64,000 nucleotides of DNA from Candidatus Cloacimonadota bacterium (GTDB taxonomy: Bacteria > Cloacimonadota > Cloacimonadia > Cloacimonadales > Cloacimonadaceae), in contig JAAYEF010000029.1 of NCBI GenBank assembly GCA_012728875.1, positions 1-64,000 on the forward strand. Reading direction: 5' to 3'. Shown piece after piece: positions 31,407-40,772 of the stretch. A program made the position numbers and the translations under genes. The notes below the pieces were generated by a model that worked only from the letters and a program-made list of their open reading frames with translations, was not told where the DNA came from and did not search any database. Each line of letters starts with the position of its first letter. The stretch's first letter is position 1.

Positions 31407-33104
31407 ATGAAAAGAAAAAGTGTATTTTGGCTTACCTTGATTCTTATCCCGGCCCTTCCCTTGTTTGCCCAGTTTGCCGGAGGTTCCGGGACCGCGCAGG
31501 ACCCCTGGCAGGTGGCAACGGCTGGCCATCTTAACAACGTTCGGGGCTACCTGGATGGCCATTTCATTCAAACTGCCGACATCGATCTGGGCGTGGCGCC
31601 CTGGAATGATGGAGCTGGCTGGGCTGCGCTGGGGCAATATTCCCACCTCCCTTTTGGGGGTAATTACGATGGAAACGGACACACGGTTTCCGGACTTTAT
31701 GTAAACAGCATGGCAACTATTTCCGAATACAAAGGGCTGTTCGGCTCCTCGGTGGGAACCATTCAAAACCTGCATCTCACAGACGTGGACCTGAAAGCCA
31801 ACAGAGACTATCTCGGGGCTTTGCTCAGCATAAATAACGGCACTGTAATAAACTGCTCCAGCAGTGGAATTGTTAAAAATTACAGTCAGAAACGATTCCT
31901 TGGCGGCTTGGTGGGGCTGAATCAAGGCGACATCATCAATTGTCACAGCTCTGGAAACGTTTCGCCGGACTCATACCTCACTCAAAACATTGGCGGTTTG
32001 GTGGGCCATAATGATGGGGATGGCAACATCACTGGCTGCTACAGCACTGCAAATGTTACTAACGGTAATCAAAATATCGGCGGCTTGGTGGGTGAGAACA
32101 ATGGAGATATTACAGACTGCCACAGCTCCGGCATTATTACTGGAAACAGTAGTCTGGGCGGTCTGGTGGGTATAAGCACCAGTGGCAACATCACAAACAG
32201 CAACAGCACAGCGGAAGTATCAGGAACCAATTATATTGGCGGCTTGGTGGGATCCCTTATTTCCTCGGATGGTGAATCCATCATCGCCAACTGCTACAGC
32301 GCTGGGCAAGTTACCGGAACGGCTCAAAGCACCGGAGGTTTGGTGGGCAGGAGCGATGGCGGTGAAATCAATAGCTGCTACAGCTCTGGAAGCGTCACGG
32401 GTGGAACTTATTACACCGGCGGCTTGATGGGTTCAAGCTCTTATTCGTTTACTAACACTGTAACATACATTAACAATTGCTATAGTTCTGCAACTGTCTC
32501 CGGTAACAGTACGATAGGCGGTTTAGTGGGCTATAATCAGCAAAGTATTATCACCAACTCCTACAGCAACGGTCATGTTTCAGGTAATTCCGCTGTTGGT
32601 GGCATGGTAGGATCGAGCATGATTGGAATCCACAACAACTGCTATTGGGACATTGAAGCGTCTGGACAAACCACAAGTAGGGGCGGCGAAGGAAGAACCA
32701 CAGCCCAAATGGTTTGCCCCCATGATGAAAATACATATGTGGGCTGGGATTGGGAGATTTGGGCAGCGGATATGAATCACACAATCAACAACGGCTATCC
32801 TTATTTAAGCTTTTTTAACGATGGGACTCCTGATCGCCCTGCCGCCGTGGAAGGCCTGACCATTTCCATCTTGGAAAACGATGTTTTGCTGACCTGGCAA
32901 CCCGTCACTGAAACCGTAAACGGTTCACCCATTGTGCCGGATGGCTACATCGTTCTCGTTGGCGAGGATCCCTGTGGCGATGTCATCTCTTTTTCAGAGC
33001 TTGGCTTTGTTTCAGACACCAGTTTTCAGCACATCCAAGCCGCTCAAAATCACCGGCACCTATTCTACCGGATTGTGGCTGTGCATGATCCATCTGGCAA
33101 ATGA
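31407..33104 (+). CDS. Secreted GLUG-motif repeat protein
   Basis: Signal peptide; repeated GGLVGxNxGxIxxCxSSGxVxG units; C-terminal Fn3-like segment. Confidence 0.9.
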   Translation: MKRKSVFWLTLILIPALPLFAQFAGGSGTAQDPWQVATAGHLNNVRGYLDGHFIQTADIDLGVAPWNDGAGWAALGQYSHLPFGGNYDGNGHTVSGLYVNSMATISEYKGLFGSSVGTIQNLHLTDVDLKANRDYLGALLSINNGTVINCSSSGIVKNYSQKRFLGGLVGLNQGDIINCHSSGNVSPDSYLTQNIGGLVGHNDGDGNITGCYSTANVTNGNQNIGGLVGENNGDITDCHSSGIITGNSSLGGLVGISTSGNITNSNSTAEVSGTNYIGGLVGSLISSDGESIIANCYSAGQVTGTAQSTGGLVGRSDGGEINSCYSSGSVTGGTYYTGGLMGSSSYSFTNTVTYINNCYSSATVSGNSTIGGLVGYNQQSIITNSYSNGHVSGNSAVGGMVGSSMIGIHNNCYWDIEASGQTTSRGGEGRTTAQMVCPHDENTYVGWDWEIWAADMNHTINNGYPYLSFFNDGTPDRPAAVEGLTISILENDVLLTWQPVTETVNGSPIVPDGYIVLVGEDPCGDVISFSELGFVSDTSFQHIQAAQNHRHLFYRIVAVHDPSGK

Positions 33105-33593: not shown

Positions 33594-34637
33594 TTAATTT
33601 CTGCCGTGTCCGGTAACTTTTCTCAGCACATCCATGGGAGTGGTGTCTTTGTCGGAGTCCTTGCTTTTTGTATCGTTCTGTGATGAACTCCTTTGCACTG
33701 AGCCGCTGTGGCTGCCGCCGGAAGAAGGCTTGGTATTGCTGTCTGAAGGTGTGTGGGAGCTTCCTCCACCACTGGGAGGGTTATATCCGCTTCCGCCACT
33801 TCCACCGCTGCCTCCACCATGTCCACCACCTGGAGGATTGGGAGGATTATAGCCTCCGCCGCCACTTCCGCCGCTACCGCTACCGCCACTCCCACCACTT
33901 GGGGGAAGAGGAGGATTGTAGCCGCCTCCACTGCTTCCGCCACCATGCCCACCTCCGCCTGGAGGCTGGGGAGGGTTGTATCCACCACCACTGGATCCAC
34001 TGCCGCCACCTGGAGGAAGAGGAGGATAGTAGCCGCCTCCACTGCCACCGTGGCTTCCACCGTGTTCACCGCCACCACTGGGGGGATTAACTCCCGATCC
34101 GCCGTGGCTTCCCTGTCCATTGCTGCCAAAAGGCGGACGCGGAGGAATGTATCCGGGCGGACGGGGTTTGTAGCCGCCGGGAGGGGGCGGATACCAATAG
34201 TGGGACGGCCAATAGTAGTAGTCTATGGGACGCGCTCGATAGTAGTTGTAAGAATAGTAGATAACAGTGTTGTAATAGGTGTTGCTCCTGTCCCGGGTGA
34301 GCCGGAAGTTAAAAACAGTGGGATGACGCAGGGCATCACGCTGATTGTCGTACAGGAAGGGCACAAAGAGAGATTTTCGAATGGGGACATAGCCTTCCAT
34401 GGTGATGATCACGTTGATGGTTCTGCCGGGGATTCCCTCATGCAACTCCATGAATTCATCCATCAAAACAGGATAGACCGGGCTTGGCGTGGAGCAGAGA
34501 TAAAGGTCGATGTCTTCCAGATTCACGTCCGCACCTTTGGGCGAGGTCCGGATCTGAAAGGCTCCATAATACTCATAAGCGCCAAGCAGGCTGAAAGCCA
34601 TCAGCAGAGTCAAAGCCAAAAATAGTTTCGTTTTCAT
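33594..34637 (-). CDS. Secreted PEGA-like protein with long Gly/Ser/Pro/Tyr-rich repeat tail
   Basis: Signal peptide MKTKLFLALTLLMAFSLLGA; YYGAFQIRTSPKGADVNLEDIDLYL; GGSGSSGGGYNPPQPPGGG repeats. Confidence 0.8.
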   Translation of the reverse strand: MKTKLFLALTLLMAFSLLGAYEYYGAFQIRTSPKGADVNLEDIDLYLCSTPSPVYPVLMDEFMELHEGIPGRTINVIITMEGYVPIRKSLFVPFLYDNQRDALRHPTVFNFRLTRDRSNTYYNTVIYYSYNYYRARPIDYYYWPSHYWYPPPPGGYKPRPPGYIPPRPPFGSNGQGSHGGSGVNPPSGGGEHGGSHGGSGGGYYPPLPPGGGSGSSGGGYNPPQPPGGGGHGGGSSGGGYNPPLPPSGGSGGSGSGGSGGGGYNPPNPPGGGHGGGSGGSGGSGYNPPSGGGSSHTPSDSNTKPSSGGSHSGSVQRSSSQNDTKSKDSDKDTTPMDVLRKVTGHGRN

Positions 34638-34814
34638 TTTAATCCTCCCATCGGAGTCGTTGTTCTTACAATATAATACTCTGTTTTGTGTCAACCCTGC
34701 ATTTAATTTTGTCTCAAACGTTCAAGCCGTTCTCAGGCATAGTTTCAGATATGAACAAACCTTGCAAGCCTCTGCCCCACTTTTAATTTGAAGATGGTGT
34801 CTCCTTGGGTTCAA

Positions 34815-35468
34815 TCAAAGCGGTTTTCGCGCGCTGATGACCACAAAGCCGCCTTCACCATGACCTTTGATGGCTTCCTGCAGGCTTTGAACCTGGTCCA
34901 GATCGCTAAAAATGGTCTGCCAAAATTCCTCAACTGCAAAGCCAGCTTCATCCAGCTTTTGATCGAGCTCGGAAGCGCCAACGAATACGGCTTCACGGTA
35001 GAAGGGGTTTTCGTGTTTGTGGATTTGATATTGACGGCCCAAAAAACTGTCCTTATCCACAAAAGCAATCACCAGCAAACCGCCTGGACGCAGAACCCGT
35101 CTGGCTTCCAGAAGACTTTTGGGAATGCTGTCCACAAAGCAGATGCTGGTGACCATGAGGGCATGGTCCACGCTTTCATCGGCATAGGGCAAGGCTTCCG
35201 CAACTGCGTCTTGAACTTCAAGCCCGCGCTGGTGAGCCTTTTCCCTCATCGCGGCGGAAGGATCGACTCCCTCCCTGATTCCCAGGGGACTGGCAAACAG
35301 GCCGCTGCCAATGCCGATTTCGATCCCTCTGCCGGATGTGGGAAGCACCTTGCGGATTGCTTCCAGTTCACTTTCGTAAACCCAACTGTTCACGGTGAAC
35401 CAGTGTTCATATTCTTCCAAATGCTGGTTAAATGGTTCAACCTTCGGCACTCTGGGCGCTTCCTTCAA
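34815..35468 (-). CDS. Class I SAM-dependent methyltransferase
   Basis: GIEIGIGSGLFASPLGI, ALPYADESVDHALMVTSICFVD, LLEARRVLRPGGLLVIAFVD. Confidence 0.9.
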   Translation of the reverse strand: MKEAPRVPKVEPFNQHLEEYEHWFTVNSWVYESELEAIRKVLPTSGRGIEIGIGSGLFASPLGIREGVDPSAAMREKAHQRGLEVQDAVAEALPYADESVDHALMVTSICFVDSIPKSLLEARRVLRPGGLLVIAFVDKDSFLGRQYQIHKHENPFYREAVFVGASELDQKLDEAGFAVEEFWQTIFSDLDQVQSLQEAIKGHGEGGFVVISARKPL

Positions 35469-36264
35469 CCTTATCGATGATTTTCTGGACTGCTTCCGTC
35501 AAGGCTTCCGCCGAGGGCTGTTTGTTGTTGAAATAGATGTAGGGCTTGCCTTGATCCGCAGAAAGAGCGATGGCGGGGTCGATTTCCAATTCAGCCAAAA
35601 TGTCGGTTTGATATTGGAAAACCAGTTCGCCGATTCCTTCGCCGGTGTAGATGGCGGTTTGTTCGCCACATTTGGGACAACGGAAAAACTTCATGTTCAC
35701 AATCACGCCCAGAATGGGGACATCCATCTTCTCGGCGAAATTCATGGATTTTTTCACGTCCAACACGGCAAGGTCCTGCGGAGTGGTCACAATCACGGTT
35801 CCATCCACATTTCCAAGGGTTTGGATGATGCTCAGGGGCTCGTCACCAGTTCCGGGAGGGCAATCCACAACCAGATAATCCAGCTCTTCCCAGTCGAAAT
35901 CGGTGAAAAACTGTTTGATGAGCGCCATTTTGAGCGGTCCGCGCCAGATGAGGGCGTCGTGCTCGTTTCCCAAAATGGAGGCGACAGTCAGCACCCAGAG
36001 GTTCGACAAAACCTGGATGGGAGTGGGTCTTCCCGTTTCGGGATGCACAGGAATGGGCACGCCTTCAATGTTTGTGAGCTTGGCAATGGAAGGACCGTGG
36101 ATGTCAACGTCCAAAAGTCCCACCTTTTTGCCCTGCAAGGCAAGTCCGTAGGCGAGATTGGTGGCCACAAAGCTTTTGCCCACGCCACCTTTCCCGCTCA
36201 TCACGATGATTCTGTGTTTGATTCTAGCCAAATTGGCTTGGAGTTGGAGTTCTTTTTCGTCCAT
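35437..36264 (-). CDS. Mrp/NBP35-type Fe-S carrier ATPase
   Basis: VMSGKGGVGKSFVATNLAYGLA, DVDIHGPSIAKL, VVDCPPGTGDEPL, CPKCGEQ. Confidence 0.92.
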   Translation of the reverse strand: MDEKELQLQANLARIKHRIIVMSGKGGVGKSFVATNLAYGLALQGKKVGLLDVDIHGPSIAKLTNIEGVPIPVHPETGRPTPIQVLSNLWVLTVASILGNEHDALIWRGPLKMALIKQFFTDFDWEELDYLVVDCPPGTGDEPLSIIQTLGNVDGTVIVTTPQDLAVLDVKKSMNFAEKMDVPILGVIVNMKFFRCPKCGEQTAIYTGEGIGELVFQYQTDILAELEIDPAIALSADQGKPYIYFNNKQPSAEALTEAVQKIIDKVEGSAQSAEG

Positions 36265-36570
36265 TTATTCAGTTTCTTCCTTTGAGATTTGTTCGTTTAG
36301 CCATTGCAATTGGCGTTCCAGATCTTCCTTTTGGGCAATCAGATCTTCGCGGGTGTAGGGATACATTTCCTCCCCATATTGGTAGCCGGGAGTTCCCAGC
36401 CATCTGCGGCCTCTGCCAGAAGCGCGAAAACCAAATCCGCGTCCACGGCCAAAGCCCCTTGTGCACCTGGGTCCAAAGCCACGTTCACCGGCTCCAAACC
36501 TTCCGCAAGCGCCCATACCCTTTCCCGGACGTCCGTCTCCAAAGGGTCCTTTTCCATCATAATTAGGCAT
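36265..36570 (-). CDS. DUF5320-type Gly/Arg-rich protein
   Basis: MPNYDGKGPFGDGRPGKGMGACGRF...; C-terminal coiled coil YTREDLIAQKEDLERQLQWLNEQI. Confidence 0.8.
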   Translation of the reverse strand: MPNYDGKGPFGDGRPGKGMGACGRFGAGERGFGPRCTRGFGRGRGFGFRASGRGRRWLGTPGYQYGEEMYPYTREDLIAQKEDLERQLQWLNEQISKEETE

Positions 36571-36572
36571 TT

Positions 36573-36779
36573 TTATCTCCTTTTATCTATGGATCTGCGA
36601 TCCATGATCGATTCGATCAGCCGGATGAAAAACTCGGCACCGCTGCTGATCAGATTGCGGCTGCCGCTGTCGTTAAAATCCTTTGTCAAGTCACGCCTTT
36701 GGCGTCCTTTTCCACAGGGACCCAAACCCCGTCCAATTCTGCCGTCTCCCAGAGGGCCGGTTCCATCGCGTCCGGGCAT
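36573..36779 (-). CDS. DUF5320-type short protein
   Basis: MPGRDGTGPLGDGRIGRGLGPCGKGRQRR. Confidence 0.75.
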   Translation of the reverse strand: MPGRDGTGPLGDGRIGRGLGPCGKGRQRRDLTKDFNDSGSRNLISSGAEFFIRLIESIMDRRSIDKRR

Positions 36780-36781
36780 CT

Positions 36782-37123
36782 TTACGCTCCTTGCGCGAGC
36801 TGTCCTCTTTGATATGCTTCATAGGCTTCGCGGACTGTCATTTCGCCCGCACCCACAAAGATCTTAAGTTCCATTTGCTTCAGGGCTTCGGCTGCGTTTC
36901 CGCCCGGGCCGTTTCCCGTGATGAGGACCTGTGCTCCGCGCTCAAATAGTTTTTGTGCGGTTTTCGGCCCGACACCGTGCGCCTGATCTGCAACTTCTCT
37001 ATTGTCAAGATGGCTAAGTTCCTGCGTATCTTCGTTGTAGAAGAGGATGTAGTCTGTTCTTCCGAAACGAGGGTCCATTTTGGAATCCCAGTCCGTTCCT
37101 TTGCTCGTAAAAGCGATAATCAT
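36782..37123 (-). CDS. NifX/NifB-C-terminal-like (dinitrogenase Fe-Mo cofactor / orange-protein-like) protein
   Basis: MIIAFTSKGTDWDSKMDPRFGRTDYILFYN...GPKTAQKLFERGAQVLITGNGPGGNA. Confidence 0.88.
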   Translation of the reverse strand: MIIAFTSKGTDWDSKMDPRFGRTDYILFYNEDTQELSHLDNREVADQAHGVGPKTAQKLFERGAQVLITGNGPGGNAAEALKQMELKIFVGAGEMTVREAYEAYQRGQLAQGA

Positions 37124-37992
37124 GATAGCTCCTTTTTGATTTGTTCCCAGATCTTTGCAAAGATTGGTTTCCACTTTTGAGGGTCATATTCCACCAGGCT
37201 CTGTCCCTGGGTGATGGCTCGGGAAAAATCTTCGTCATAGGGGATTTCCGCGATGACGCCGATTCCTTCCCGGCCTAAAAATTCACGAATTTGAGAGCTG
37301 ACTCCAGAGTTGAGGTCGGCTTTGTTTATCACGCAGACGCCATGGATGCCAAAGCGTTTGGTGAGTTCCCACACGCGTTTGAGGTCGCTGAGTCCAGATA
37401 GGCTGGGCTCGGTTACAAAGACAACCAAGTTTGCGCCGGAAAGCGAGGAAATCACCGGACAGCCGATTCCGGGGGAACCGTCCACCAGCACATATTCCAA
37501 GCCATCTTCCCCGGCGATGCGTTTGGCGTCTTTTTTCACCTTCGCCACCAGTTTGCCGGAATTGTCTGCACCGATGCCGAGACGGGCATGAACCAGGCTT
37601 GCACCCAGTTTTGTGTTCGAGATAAAGCTCTGCCCCACGTTCTGTTGGGGAAGACTGATGGCTCCCACCGGGCAAACTTCAAAGCAGTATCCACAGCCTT
37701 CGCAGGCCAAAAAGTCAACTTCAAAAACCCCGTGCTTGATTTGGATGGCGTTGAAGCGGCAGACTTCTTTGCAGAGCCCGCAGAAAGAACATTTGGCGGG
37801 ATCAATTTCCGCTTTCAAGCCGCTGTAAAAATCTTGTGCCTGCTTGTGGTCCGGCTTCAAAATGAGGTGCATGTCGGCGGCGTCCACGTCGCAATCCGCC
37901 ATCAGCGACTTTTCTGCCACGAAGGCAAGCGCTGCCGCCACGGATGTCTTTCCGGTTCCACCTTTTCCCGAGATGATGACTATTTCCTTCAT
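37120..37992 (-). CDS. MinD-superfamily P-loop ATPase with inserted 2[4Fe-4S] ferredoxin domain
   Basis: IISGKGGTGKTSVAAALA; CSFCGLCKEVCRFNAIQ...CEGCGYCFEVCPVGAI. Confidence 0.92.
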   Translation of the reverse strand: MKEIVIISGKGGTGKTSVAAALAFVAEKSLMADCDVDAADMHLILKPDHKQAQDFYSGLKAEIDPAKCSFCGLCKEVCRFNAIQIKHGVFEVDFLACEGCGYCFEVCPVGAISLPQQNVGQSFISNTKLGASLVHARLGIGADNSGKLVAKVKKDAKRIAGEDGLEYVLVDGSPGIGCPVISSLSGANLVVFVTEPSLSGLSDLKRVWELTKRFGIHGVCVINKADLNSGVSSQIREFLGREGIGVIAEIPYDEDFSRAITQGQSLVEYDPQKWKPIFAKIWEQIKKELS

Positions 37993-38849
37993 TTGCCGCC
38001 TCCCAAGCTTGAAATCTGGGTATGGATGGCGTCCATACCGGTGCGGATGGAGTCAACTTTGTCGTAAAGCGTTTCCCCGCGGGAATAGAGCTCGGCAACT
38101 CGGCGATCATGCGGAAATGAAGCCCAAACGGGGATGCCTTCAGCTTCGCAATATCTGAACACATCGTCGTTGCCAATTCCAACCCGGTTCACCGCCACAG
38201 CGATTGGTTTATCCAGATGACGCATGGTTTCAACCGCCAGGCTCAGGTCGTGAAGCCCGAAGGGCGTTGGTTCCGTAACCAAAAGGGCAAAATCAGCGTC
38301 TCTTGTGGCGTTGATCACCGAGCATGAGGTTCCGGGAGGGCAGTCCCGAATCTGGAGGTCGGCACCTGCGATTTCCGCTTCAGCATAGGCTAAAGTCTGT
38401 TCAATCAAGGGAGTTGCCATCTCCACGCCGATCTCCATCTTGCTTTCCACAAAGTCCAGACCGTCCTGCTCATAATGACGCAAAAACCCCAGGGATTTTT
38501 GTGTCATGGGCAGGGCATTTTCCGGGCACAATTCGCTGCAGGCGTAGCAACTGTGGCAAAGCTCCGGCATCACCAAAATGTGCTTTCCCAGCTTCAAAAC
38601 CGCATTGAAACGGCAAAGTTCGGAACACTTTCCGCAGAGGATGCAGGCTTCCTTCTTCCATTCGGGCACGGCTCTGAACAGCTGCTTTTCGCGCTTGAGC
38701 TTGCCTTTGAGGAAGATTCCGCTGTTGGGCTCCTCCACATCGAGGTCCAAAAGCGCAACCCTGCGTGTGGCAGCGGCATAGAGCGCCAGATTCACAGCAA
38801 GCGTGGTTTTTCCGGTTCCGCCCTTTCCGCTGGCAATGGCAAGTTTCAT
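37989..38849 (-). CDS. MinD-superfamily P-loop ATPase with inserted 2[4Fe-4S] ferredoxin domain (paralog)
   Basis: IASGKGGTGKTTLAVNLAL; CILCGKCSELCRFNAVLK...CHSCYACSELCPENAL. Confidence 0.92.
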   Translation of the reverse strand: MKLAIASGKGGTGKTTLAVNLALYAAATRRVALLDLDVEEPNSGIFLKGKLKREKQLFRAVPEWKKEACILCGKCSELCRFNAVLKLGKHILVMPELCHSCYACSELCPENALPMTQKSLGFLRHYEQDGLDFVESKMEIGVEMATPLIEQTLAYAEAEIAGADLQIRDCPPGTSCSVINATRDADFALLVTEPTPFGLHDLSLAVETMRHLDKPIAVAVNRVGIGNDDVFRYCEAEGIPVWASFPHDRRVAELYSRGETLYDKVDSIRTGMDAIHTQISSLGGGK

Positions 38850-39181
38850 TAATGGTCGCAGCGGTTTTCGCCGGACTGCAGGTCACCCCGCAGATATTGT
38901 TCCACCAGTTCGCGCAAGGGAAGCTGCGGCGCGCCAATGATAACTTTGATATCTTGTGCGCTCATCAGCTCCTGGGCGCGGTTTCCCATGCCACCGGCAA
39001 TGACCACGTTGCAGCCGTGTTTGTGCAGAAAAGCGGGATGTGATCCGGGTTCGTGGACCGGCGGGTCCAAAATTTCCTCTTTCACGATTTTAGTGTCCTC
39101 GATCGTGAAAATGGCAAAAGCTTCACAGTGTCCAAAGTGGGAGCTGATGCTTCCTTGAGTGATCGGGATGGCGATTTTCAT
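38849..39181 (-). CDS. NifX/NifB-C-terminal-like (orange-protein-like) protein
   Basis: MKIAIPITQGSISSHFGHCEAFAIFTIED...HKHGCNVVIAGGMGNRAQELM. Confidence 0.88.
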   Translation of the reverse strand: MKIAIPITQGSISSHFGHCEAFAIFTIEDTKIVKEEILDPPVHEPGSHPAFLHKHGCNVVIAGGMGNRAQELMSAQDIKVIIGAPQLPLRELVEQYLRGDLQSGENRCDH

Positions 39182-39198
39182 TTTGTTCTCCTGTTTAT

Positions 39199-39438
39199 TT
39201 AGTTTTCTTCATTGGTGCTGGGCTCGAATTCCTTCAGCCGTTCTTCAATCCAGCGAACCTCTTTTTCAAGAGCCGCCTTGCGTTCCAAAAGCTCTTCGCG
39301 CGTGTATTCATATATATGACCCTGAAAACCCTGAACCATGTTTGAATCGGGAATGTGCCCAAAACCCTGGCCACGGCCTGCACCGCGACCCATTCCCCGT
39401 CCTCCGCGTCTGGGTCCGATTCCGTCAAAATCTGGCAT
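39199..39438 (-). CDS. DUF5320-type Gly/Arg-rich protein
   Basis: MPDFDGIGPRRGGRGMGRGAGRGQGFGH...EYTREELLERKAALEKEVRWIEERLKEF. Confidence 0.8.
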   Translation of the reverse strand: MPDFDGIGPRRGGRGMGRGAGRGQGFGHIPDSNMVQGFQGHIYEYTREELLERKAALEKEVRWIEERLKEFEPSTNEEN

Positions 39439-39889
39439 TTCTACCTCCATGGCGGCAACGGCCGCACTTTTTGCATTGTTGTTCATGGCAATCCTTCAGT
39501 GAGACAAGGTTTGGACCTTCGCAATCCGGACAGTGAAACACATATTTTTCTTCGCTTTGGGAAAAGCTGTCGCAGTCCTCACACCAGAAAGAGTGTTCCT
39601 TCAAGCGCACATCTCCACCTTCGATCAGGATCTGCGCACCCTCCACCAAAGCGGAGGCGAATTTCCGCCGGGCACGATCGTAAATTCGGGTCAGGGTGGG
39701 ACGCGAAACCTGCATCAATTCGGCAGCTTCAGCTTGGGTGAGAAGTTCATGATCCAAAAGGCGGATGGCTTCATATTCATCCAAGGCAAGCACCACTTGA
39801 CGGCGCTTCCCTTCCAAGCGGCCATAAGGACGGAAACCTTTGACCAGCGGAGTCGTCTGTACCTGTCTCAATATACGTTTTCTTGCCAT
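39425..39889 (-). CDS. DUF134 family HTH protein (predicted transcriptional regulator)
   Basis: VVLALDEYEAIRLLDHELLTQAEAAELMQVSRPTLTRIYDRARRKFASALVEG; C-terminal Cys-rich. Confidence 0.92.
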   Translation of the reverse strand: MARKRILRQVQTTPLVKGFRPYGRLEGKRRQVVLALDEYEAIRLLDHELLTQAEAAELMQVSRPTLTRIYDRARRKFASALVEGAQILIEGGDVRLKEHSFWCEDCDSFSQSEEKYVFHCPDCEGPNLVSLKDCHEQQCKKCGRCRHGGRNARF

Positions 39890-39905
39890 TTCTAAATTCT
39901 CTCTA

Positions 39906-39921
39906 ATGAACTTATGTTCAT
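39906..39921. promoter_or_regulatory. 16-bp palindrome, candidate operator of the DUF134 operon
   Basis: ATGAAC-TTAT-GTTCAT, perfect 6+6 inverted repeat abutting the -10 element. Confidence 0.65.
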
Positions 39922-39948
39922 AATAATCGAACCCGGTCTTTCTGTCAA
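39920..39948 (-). promoter_or_regulatory. Sigma70-like promoter of the DUF134 operon
   Basis: Minus strand TTGACA (39948-39943) - 17 nt - TATTAT (39925-39920). Confidence 0.75.
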
Positions 39949-40091: not shown

Positions 40092-40673
40092 TTAGGGACG
40101 TGGTTTTCCAGAATGACTTCCGTGTCCGCCTTGGTTGTTGCCAGGAGGGTTGGGTCCGCCGGGTCCGTGTGAACCGCCGGAGGGAGGTTTGTGTCCGGGG
40201 CCGGATGGCGGTTTGGGAGGCTGGGGATGATGATTTCCAGGACCATGGCCATGTCCATGTCCGGGAGGGTTCGTGATTGGATAGTAGTATGCCGGATAGC
40301 CGTAGTTCCAAACCGGCGGCGGCGGGGTCAGTTGCAAGGTGAAATGATATACGCTTGGGTTGCGAAGGGCGTCGCGCTCCCACTTTTTGGTGTAAGGAAC
40401 AAAAATCTGTTGGCGCATGCTGATGTAGCCGGGTTTTGAAATCAAAAGATCCAGCATCTGTCCGGGTCTTCCACCCACATACACCATGCTTTGGTCCATT
40501 TGAACCGGGATGAGAATGTTGGGTGATGTGCCCAGATATTGGTTTGTGCCAAACAGGGATACAATTGCGCCCTGGGGCTGGGTGGTGATCTTAAACGCCC
40601 CAAAGATGTTTTGAGCGCTAAGCATTCCGACCGCGAGGGCCAGCATTGTGACGAGCAGGGCTGTGCGTTTCAT
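40092..40673 (-). CDS. Secreted PEGA-like protein with Gly/Pro/His-rich tail (paralog of 33594-34637)
   Basis: Signal peptide MKRTALLVTMLALAVGMLSA; FGAFKITTQPQGAIVSLFGTNQYLGTSPNILIPVQMD; FVPYTKKWERDALRNPSVYHFTL matches FVPFLYDNQRDALRHPTVFNFRL. Confidence 0.8.
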   Translation of the reverse strand: MKRTALLVTMLALAVGMLSAQNIFGAFKITTQPQGAIVSLFGTNQYLGTSPNILIPVQMDQSMVYVGGRPGQMLDLLISKPGYISMRQQIFVPYTKKWERDALRNPSVYHFTLQLTPPPPVWNYGYPAYYYPITNPPGHGHGHGPGNHHPQPPKPPSGPGHKPPSGGSHGPGGPNPPGNNQGGHGSHSGKPRP

Positions 40674-40737
40674 GACTTCCTCCTTCAGGAATTTTATGTT
40701 GCTACAATGAATACACAGCCCTTCAAAAATCCTGCAC

Positions 40738-40772
40738 AAAAAAAAAGCCCCTCTTCTGGTGGAACTGCCTGA
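40738..40772 (-). terminator. Rho-independent terminator of the GcvT-like gene
   Basis: Minus strand AGCCTCTCTTC...GAAGAGGGGCT + T-run. Confidence 0.8.

Follow-up and report, generated by a model that had tools for sequence, protein, structure and literature searches.

A DUF134-led gene cluster of orange-protein kind with a predicted autoregulatory operator in a Candidatus Cloacimonadota bacterium

Orange-protein (ORP) genes of Desulfovibrio vulgaris are arranged in two divergent operons controlled by sigma54, DVU2106 and integration host factor (PMC3897727), and the MrpORP protein of this species transfers clusters to the Orp proteins (PMC6345978). IssA of Pyrococcus furiosus stores thioferrate and consists of a Nitro_FeMo-Co domain with a basic Gly-/aromatic-rich tail that is the proposed thioferrate binder (PMC5524996). 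A cluster resembling these systems was examined in a window of 64,000 nucleotides (contig JAAYEF010000029.1, positions 1 to 64,000) from a Candidatus Cloacimonadota bacterium whose genome assembly comprises 2.17 Mb in 33 contigs and is 90% complete. The cluster is a run of ten genes (34815-39889), all on the minus strand, as are the control elements described below. These genes encode, in the order given in an earlier note on this DNA, a DUF134 helix-turn-helix (HTH) protein, a DUF5320-like protein, a first NifX-like protein (NifX1), two ferredoxin-MinD ATPases (FdA and FdB), a second NifX-like protein (NifX2), two DUF5320 proteins, an Mrp/NBP35 ATPase and an S-adenosylmethionine (SAM) methyltransferase. 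Overlapping or near-abutting genes had been described, and the spacings were -14, +17, -1, -4, -4, +2, +2, 0 and -5 bp. The sequence evidence on balance favours an autoregulated module of the ORP/MrpORP/IssA kind that scaffolds and delivers metal-sulfur (Fe-S) clusters, with a conserved palindrome before the DUF134 gene as the predicted operator.

The locus shares with the D. vulgaris orp operons (i.e. Orp3, Orp4, Orp5, Orp8 and Orp9/MrpORP) two ferredoxin-containing MinD-type ATPases adjoining Nitro_FeMo-Co genes, an ORP-type Di-Nase protein, an Mrp/NBP35 protein and an MrpORP-type Di-Nase domain. Differences were observed in control, with one sigma70-type promoter and a DUF134 operator in place of sigma54 and a DVU2106-type activator (control of this type characterises the D. 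vulgaris operons and need not define the ORP kind), and in MrpORP, which is split in the window but fused in D. vulgaris. Three DUF5320 proteins, a methyltransferase and a genome without MoaC are found on the window side only. Most DUF134 loci in relatives of the same order exhibited, in full or in part, the arrangement DUF134-(DUF5320)-NifX-FdA-FdB-NifX-(DUF5320)-Mrp, indicating that the ten-gene run did not arise by chance. A ferredoxin-MinD core accompanied, in an order that varied, by NifX, Mrp, DUF5320 or DUF134 was present at 80 loci, some of them archaeal. The cluster is of a kind already known, and the combination of DUF134, DUF5320, NifX, paired ferredoxin-MinD and Mrp recurs across bacterial phyla and some archaea. 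Gene content and this neighbourhood comparison uphold the designation ORP-like in the earlier note. The pair of ferredoxin-MinD paralogs, which that note had regarded as a departure, is the norm, since D. vulgaris has Orp3 and Orp4 (PMC6345978) and 94 such pairs were recovered.

A single near-consensus sigma-70-type promoter was detected in the region, TTGACA-17-TATTAT at 39948-39920, with 11/12 bases matching. Its -35 element (39943..39948) begins exactly where the proposed feature ended, at 39948, and is separated by 17 bp from the -10 element (39920..39925). Scanning for terminator-like sites on the minus strand found none inside the ten-gene run and one upstream (40059-40034). One promoter and no internal terminator-like site make co-transcription of all ten genes likely. 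The DUF134 gene (39425..39889, 154 aa) stands first behind this promoter, in agreement with the proposal that DUF134 rather than a sigma54 regulator leads the cluster. Between promoter and gene lies the predicted operator TGAACATAAGTTCA (14 bp, palindromic; 39907..39920), which shares the last base of the -10 element and places the exact sequence TGMACATANGTKCA directly before DUF134. The pattern TGMACAWAWGTKCA matched only once in the whole 2.17-Mb genome, at 39907-39920 (~0.26 matches expected at equal base frequencies). The looser form TGMAC-N4-GTKCA occurred at 18 places in this genome, approximately the chance level, indicating that the AT-rich centre is needed.

The palindrome TGAACATATGTTCA and variants were seen upstream of DUF134 genes. 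Palindromes of the TGMAC-N4-GTKCA type were present in 30/45 DUF134 upstreams of the order (0.02 expected in shuffles), a set that was the source of the motif, and in 14/32 upstreams from multiple phyla (0.005 expected in shuffles), with carriers including Bacteroidales, Calditrichota, Neomarinimicrobiota and Nautiliales. In 64 genomes of the phylum, none used for motif discovery, TGMACATANGTKCA was located just upstream of 45 of the 53 testable DUF134 genes. A census of 125 genomes yielded 107 distinct operator places as compared to 7 matches for a backward control. The gene behind was DUF134 at 72 of these places, a detached DUF5320 at eight, a lipoprotein at three and Mrp at one. As the operator also precedes the detached DUF5320 and Mrp genes, these parts are predicted to form one regulon with the DUF134 cluster. 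An explanation in which the operator serves another regulator, DUF134 being merely the first gene behind it, would account for the operator places without a nearby DUF134 and for a genome (G010, 80% complete) in which operator-led DUF5320 genes, a pair, were found and DUF134 was not detected. This explanation is improbable, as the 72 places lie directly before DUF134, the motif tracks DUF134 across phyla and DUF134 itself has an HTH fold.

The DUF134 protein scored 83.7 bits with Pfam (over the cut-off) and carries a C-terminal Cys ribbon. In its structure model (predicted local distance difference test score, pLDDT, of 85), the HTH superposes on a DeoR-operator complex and on SigR region 4 at 0.6-0.7 A over 40-46 residues. 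Binding of DUF134 to the operator is very probable. In most close relatives, the distance from the start of the -35 element to that of the operator is 27-28 bp, with the operator abutting or overlapping the -10 element, and in other lineages it falls within the -35/-10 spacer. Polymerase would be obstructed at either position, so that DUF134 is likely to act as a repressor of the operon. The dedicated-regulator role given to DUF134 in the earlier note is supported by the conserved operator and the regulon. Fusions of DUF134 to a Nitro_FeMo-Co (NifX) domain were found in at least three lineages (L055/L067, L154 and L161). In the L161 fusion, from Mailhella, the NifX-type domain matches Desulfovibrio gigas ORP (2wfb) at 141 bits and is, by sequence, a true orange protein. 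The Cys ribbon and these fusions suggest that the cluster state of NifX-type scaffolds is the signal sensed by DUF134, and such sensing of the metal-sulfur state is a possibility of slightly less than even weight. Foldseek matches of the whole DUF134 protein to MCM and HypA ran through the Cys ribbon with E > 0.001, and this homology was not accepted. The open-access literature yielded nothing relevant on the function of DUF134 or DUF5320 or on the operator motif, and no prior description of a DUF134 operator, a DUF134 regulon or a DUF134-ORP fusion; relative to that literature, the operator with its regulon and the fusion are new here. In three loci (L210, L211 and L212), an unannotated lipoprotein of ~195 aa without a Pfam match lies behind a DUF134-type operator with a TTGACA-like element, and in L211 and L212 it is followed by a protein resembling the metallo-beta-lactamase fold.

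The two NifX-like proteins had been placed in the Nitro_FeMo-Co family and profile searches agreed, with Pfam scores of 73.2 and 57.7 bits (over the cut-off); no further Nitro_FeMo-Co protein was found in the host genome. Both proposed paralogs are thus present, but they are not equivalent copies, one matching the C-terminal half of MrpORP and the other the ORP/IssA type. The Mrp/NBP35 ATPase (35437..36264; NUBPL/ParA, 286 bits, over the cut-off) covers positions 1-257 of the NCBIfam MrpORP model NF041136 (E 1.6e-97) and NifX1 (38849..39181) covers positions 265-364 (E 2.3e-35). The scores of 327 and 123 bits each fall short of the 450-bit equivalog cut-off for a single chain, whilst the two proteins together cover nearly all of the model. 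Judged by these profiles, Mrp and NifX1 are the P-loop and stand-alone Di-Nase halves of a split MrpORP, encoded by genes ~2.6 kb apart; an Mrp-NifX fusion was among the recovered loci. The Mrp half contains both the deviant Walker A motif GKGGVGKS and the CXXC motif (i.e. CPKC). NifX1 retains SHFGHCE, PPxHEPGSHP (here PPVHEPGSHP) and CDH motifs of the type described for MrpORP (PMC6345978), with Ser replacing the first Cys of CXHFGHCE. NifX2 (36782..37123, 113 aa) is of the ORP/MTH1175 type, with similarity to 1rdu (56.2 bits), D. gigas ORP 2wfb (47.6 bits) and 1eo1.

This relatedness of NifX2 to ORP, the Mailhella fusion and the overlap in gene content with the orp operons (PMC6345978) would fit a true orange-protein system, in which NifX2 carries S2MoS2CuS2MoS2 as in Desulfovibrio and the other genes mature or use the cluster. 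Such a system is improbable here. MoaC was absent from the host genome and from 59/61 relatives of the order (detected in only two), whilst NifX-like genes were present in 43/61. ModA was absent from the host genome and over the cut-off in only 3/61 relatives, a result that does not exclude molybdate importers other than ModA, which were not searched. Both families were detected in 11/14 control genomes. The near-absence of MoaC and ModA makes a Mo-Cu cofactor unlikely in this clade, and an iron-sulfide cargo is most likely. A role in nitrogenase cofactor assembly was also rejected, as nitrogenase-type proteins (PF00148) had no match in the host genome.

The DUF5320 proteins bear on how such a cargo might be held. 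Two of the three proposed, a basic protein of 68 aa (36573..36779; 31.7 bits) and a Gly/Arg/aromatic-rich protein of 101 aa (36265..36570; 50.5 bits), are over the Pfam cut-off. The first, DUF5320a (39199..39438, 79 aa, Gly/Arg-rich), scored 16 bits against a cut-off of 27 but matched a relative-based profile at 43 bits. NifX2 and DUF5320 form a single protein in L035, L040 and L046, three genomes of one genus (g4). The pairing of a Nitro_FeMo-Co scaffold with a Gly/Arg/aromatic-rich partner is shared with IssA (PMC5524996), in which scaffold and tail are one chain, whereas the DUF5320 genes of the window are separate and fused to NifX2 only in the g4 relatives. By this analogy, the odds are about even that NifX2 and DUF5320 constitute an IssA-like scaffold.

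FdA (37989..38849) and FdB (37120..37992) are MinD-type ATPases with two inserted [4Fe-4S] motifs each (CbiA and two Fer4 matches over the cut-off). Each contains the eight ferredoxin Cys and one further Cys in a switch-II D-x6-C arrangement (Cys176 in FdA and Cys178 in FdB), which was invariant in both proteins of all 94/94 recovered pairs. NifH has the same D-x6-C spacing at its cluster-binding Cys132, whilst MinD has no Cys at the switch-II position, in agreement with the MinD alignments obtained. The FdB model (pLDDT 94) adopts a MinD/NifH fold with approximately equal likeness to both. ATP-driven, NifH-like reduction by FdA-FdB is a tentative proposal. A function in cell division or polar positioning, such as has been suggested for the ORP complex of Desulfovibrio, would draw on the MinD-like character of FdA and FdB, MinD proteins being the best sequence and structure matches of FdB, on the polar location of MrpORP in D. 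vulgaris (PMC6345978) and on the detection of MinC over the cut-off in 0/61 order relatives, leaving room for another system. The D. vulgaris role is itself a hypothesis (PMC4672049), however, and the C-terminal amphipathic helices of FdA and FdB, sought as MinD-like membrane-targeting elements, were not stronger than internal 26-mers. The cluster is also patchily distributed within the genus, which is odd for a division-site system: DUF134 was over the cut-off in 40/61 relatives as compared to the 43/61 with NifX-like genes, and several members of the same genus lacked both. A division role is improbable. Across the 61 genomes, 40 carried both DUF134 and NifX, 18 neither and three NifX alone; the associated P-value of 1e-12 is not to be taken literally as the genomes are related.

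The last gene of the run encodes a class I SAM methyltransferase (34815..35468; Methyltransf_11, 59 bits, over the cut-off), with an internal GTG near 35449 as a possible true start. The same family occurs in clusters L073 and L123; it is recurrent in few clusters and is not core. At L211:1-2036, a relative of this methyltransferase forms a fusion protein with a ThiD-like kinase and adjoins a TenA-like gene, indicating that the family also occurs outside ORP clusters. Related Gly/Pro-rich secreted proteins, PEGA-type in look, are encoded on either side of the operon (33594-34694 and 40092-40739), and a secreted protein with GLUG-like repeats is encoded on the plus strand at 31407-33104. ORP operons from two genera (L042 in G012 and L044 in G025) share 98.3% identity across 3.6 kb, which may reflect recent transfer or mis-binning.

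For the Fe-S scaffold and delivery module, the following mechanism is proposed. A DUF134 dimer would bind the operator through its HTH and block RNA polymerase, in a manner that depends on metal-sulfur cluster loading. NifX2 and the Gly-rich DUF5320 proteins would act as a divided IssA (i.e. globular scaffold and tail) on which a cluster or iron-sulfide is kept. Reduction or remodelling of this cargo would fall to FdA-FdB, at the expense of ATP and by way of their Fe-S centres, and Mrp-NifX1 would hand clusters to client proteins. Besides the limited molybdate-importer search and the G010 genome, several observations weigh against this module. Approximately 23/107 operator places had no recognised link, and the exact motif was missing from 15/45 order and 18/32 cross-phylum DUF134 genes, indicating that the operator rule is not universal. 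DUF5320a is acidic (net charge -3), and the analogy of DUF5320 to the IssA tail is based on composition and fusion and not on demonstrated homology. MinD gave the best structural E-value for FdB, and the sequence profile reached MinD before NifH-like proteins. A broader proposal is less probable: that DUF134 proteins constitute a widely distributed family of one-component repressors, which read the loading of NifX/ORP scaffolds (directly in the fusions) and, via TGMACATANGTKCA, control a regulon for the Mo-independent storage and delivery of iron-sulfide. Within this regulon, an FdA-FdB heterodimer would be an ATP-driven NifH-like reductase with the switch-II Cys at its interface.

ORP-type clusters occur in many anaerobes. 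For DUF134, a family without an assigned function in the open-access literature, the sharply defined operator and regulon offer a testable role, and the operator ties DUF5320 to the ORP system independently of gene order. Carriers without Mo-cofactor synthesis make the question of cargo (i.e. Fe-S or Mo-Cu) directly testable.

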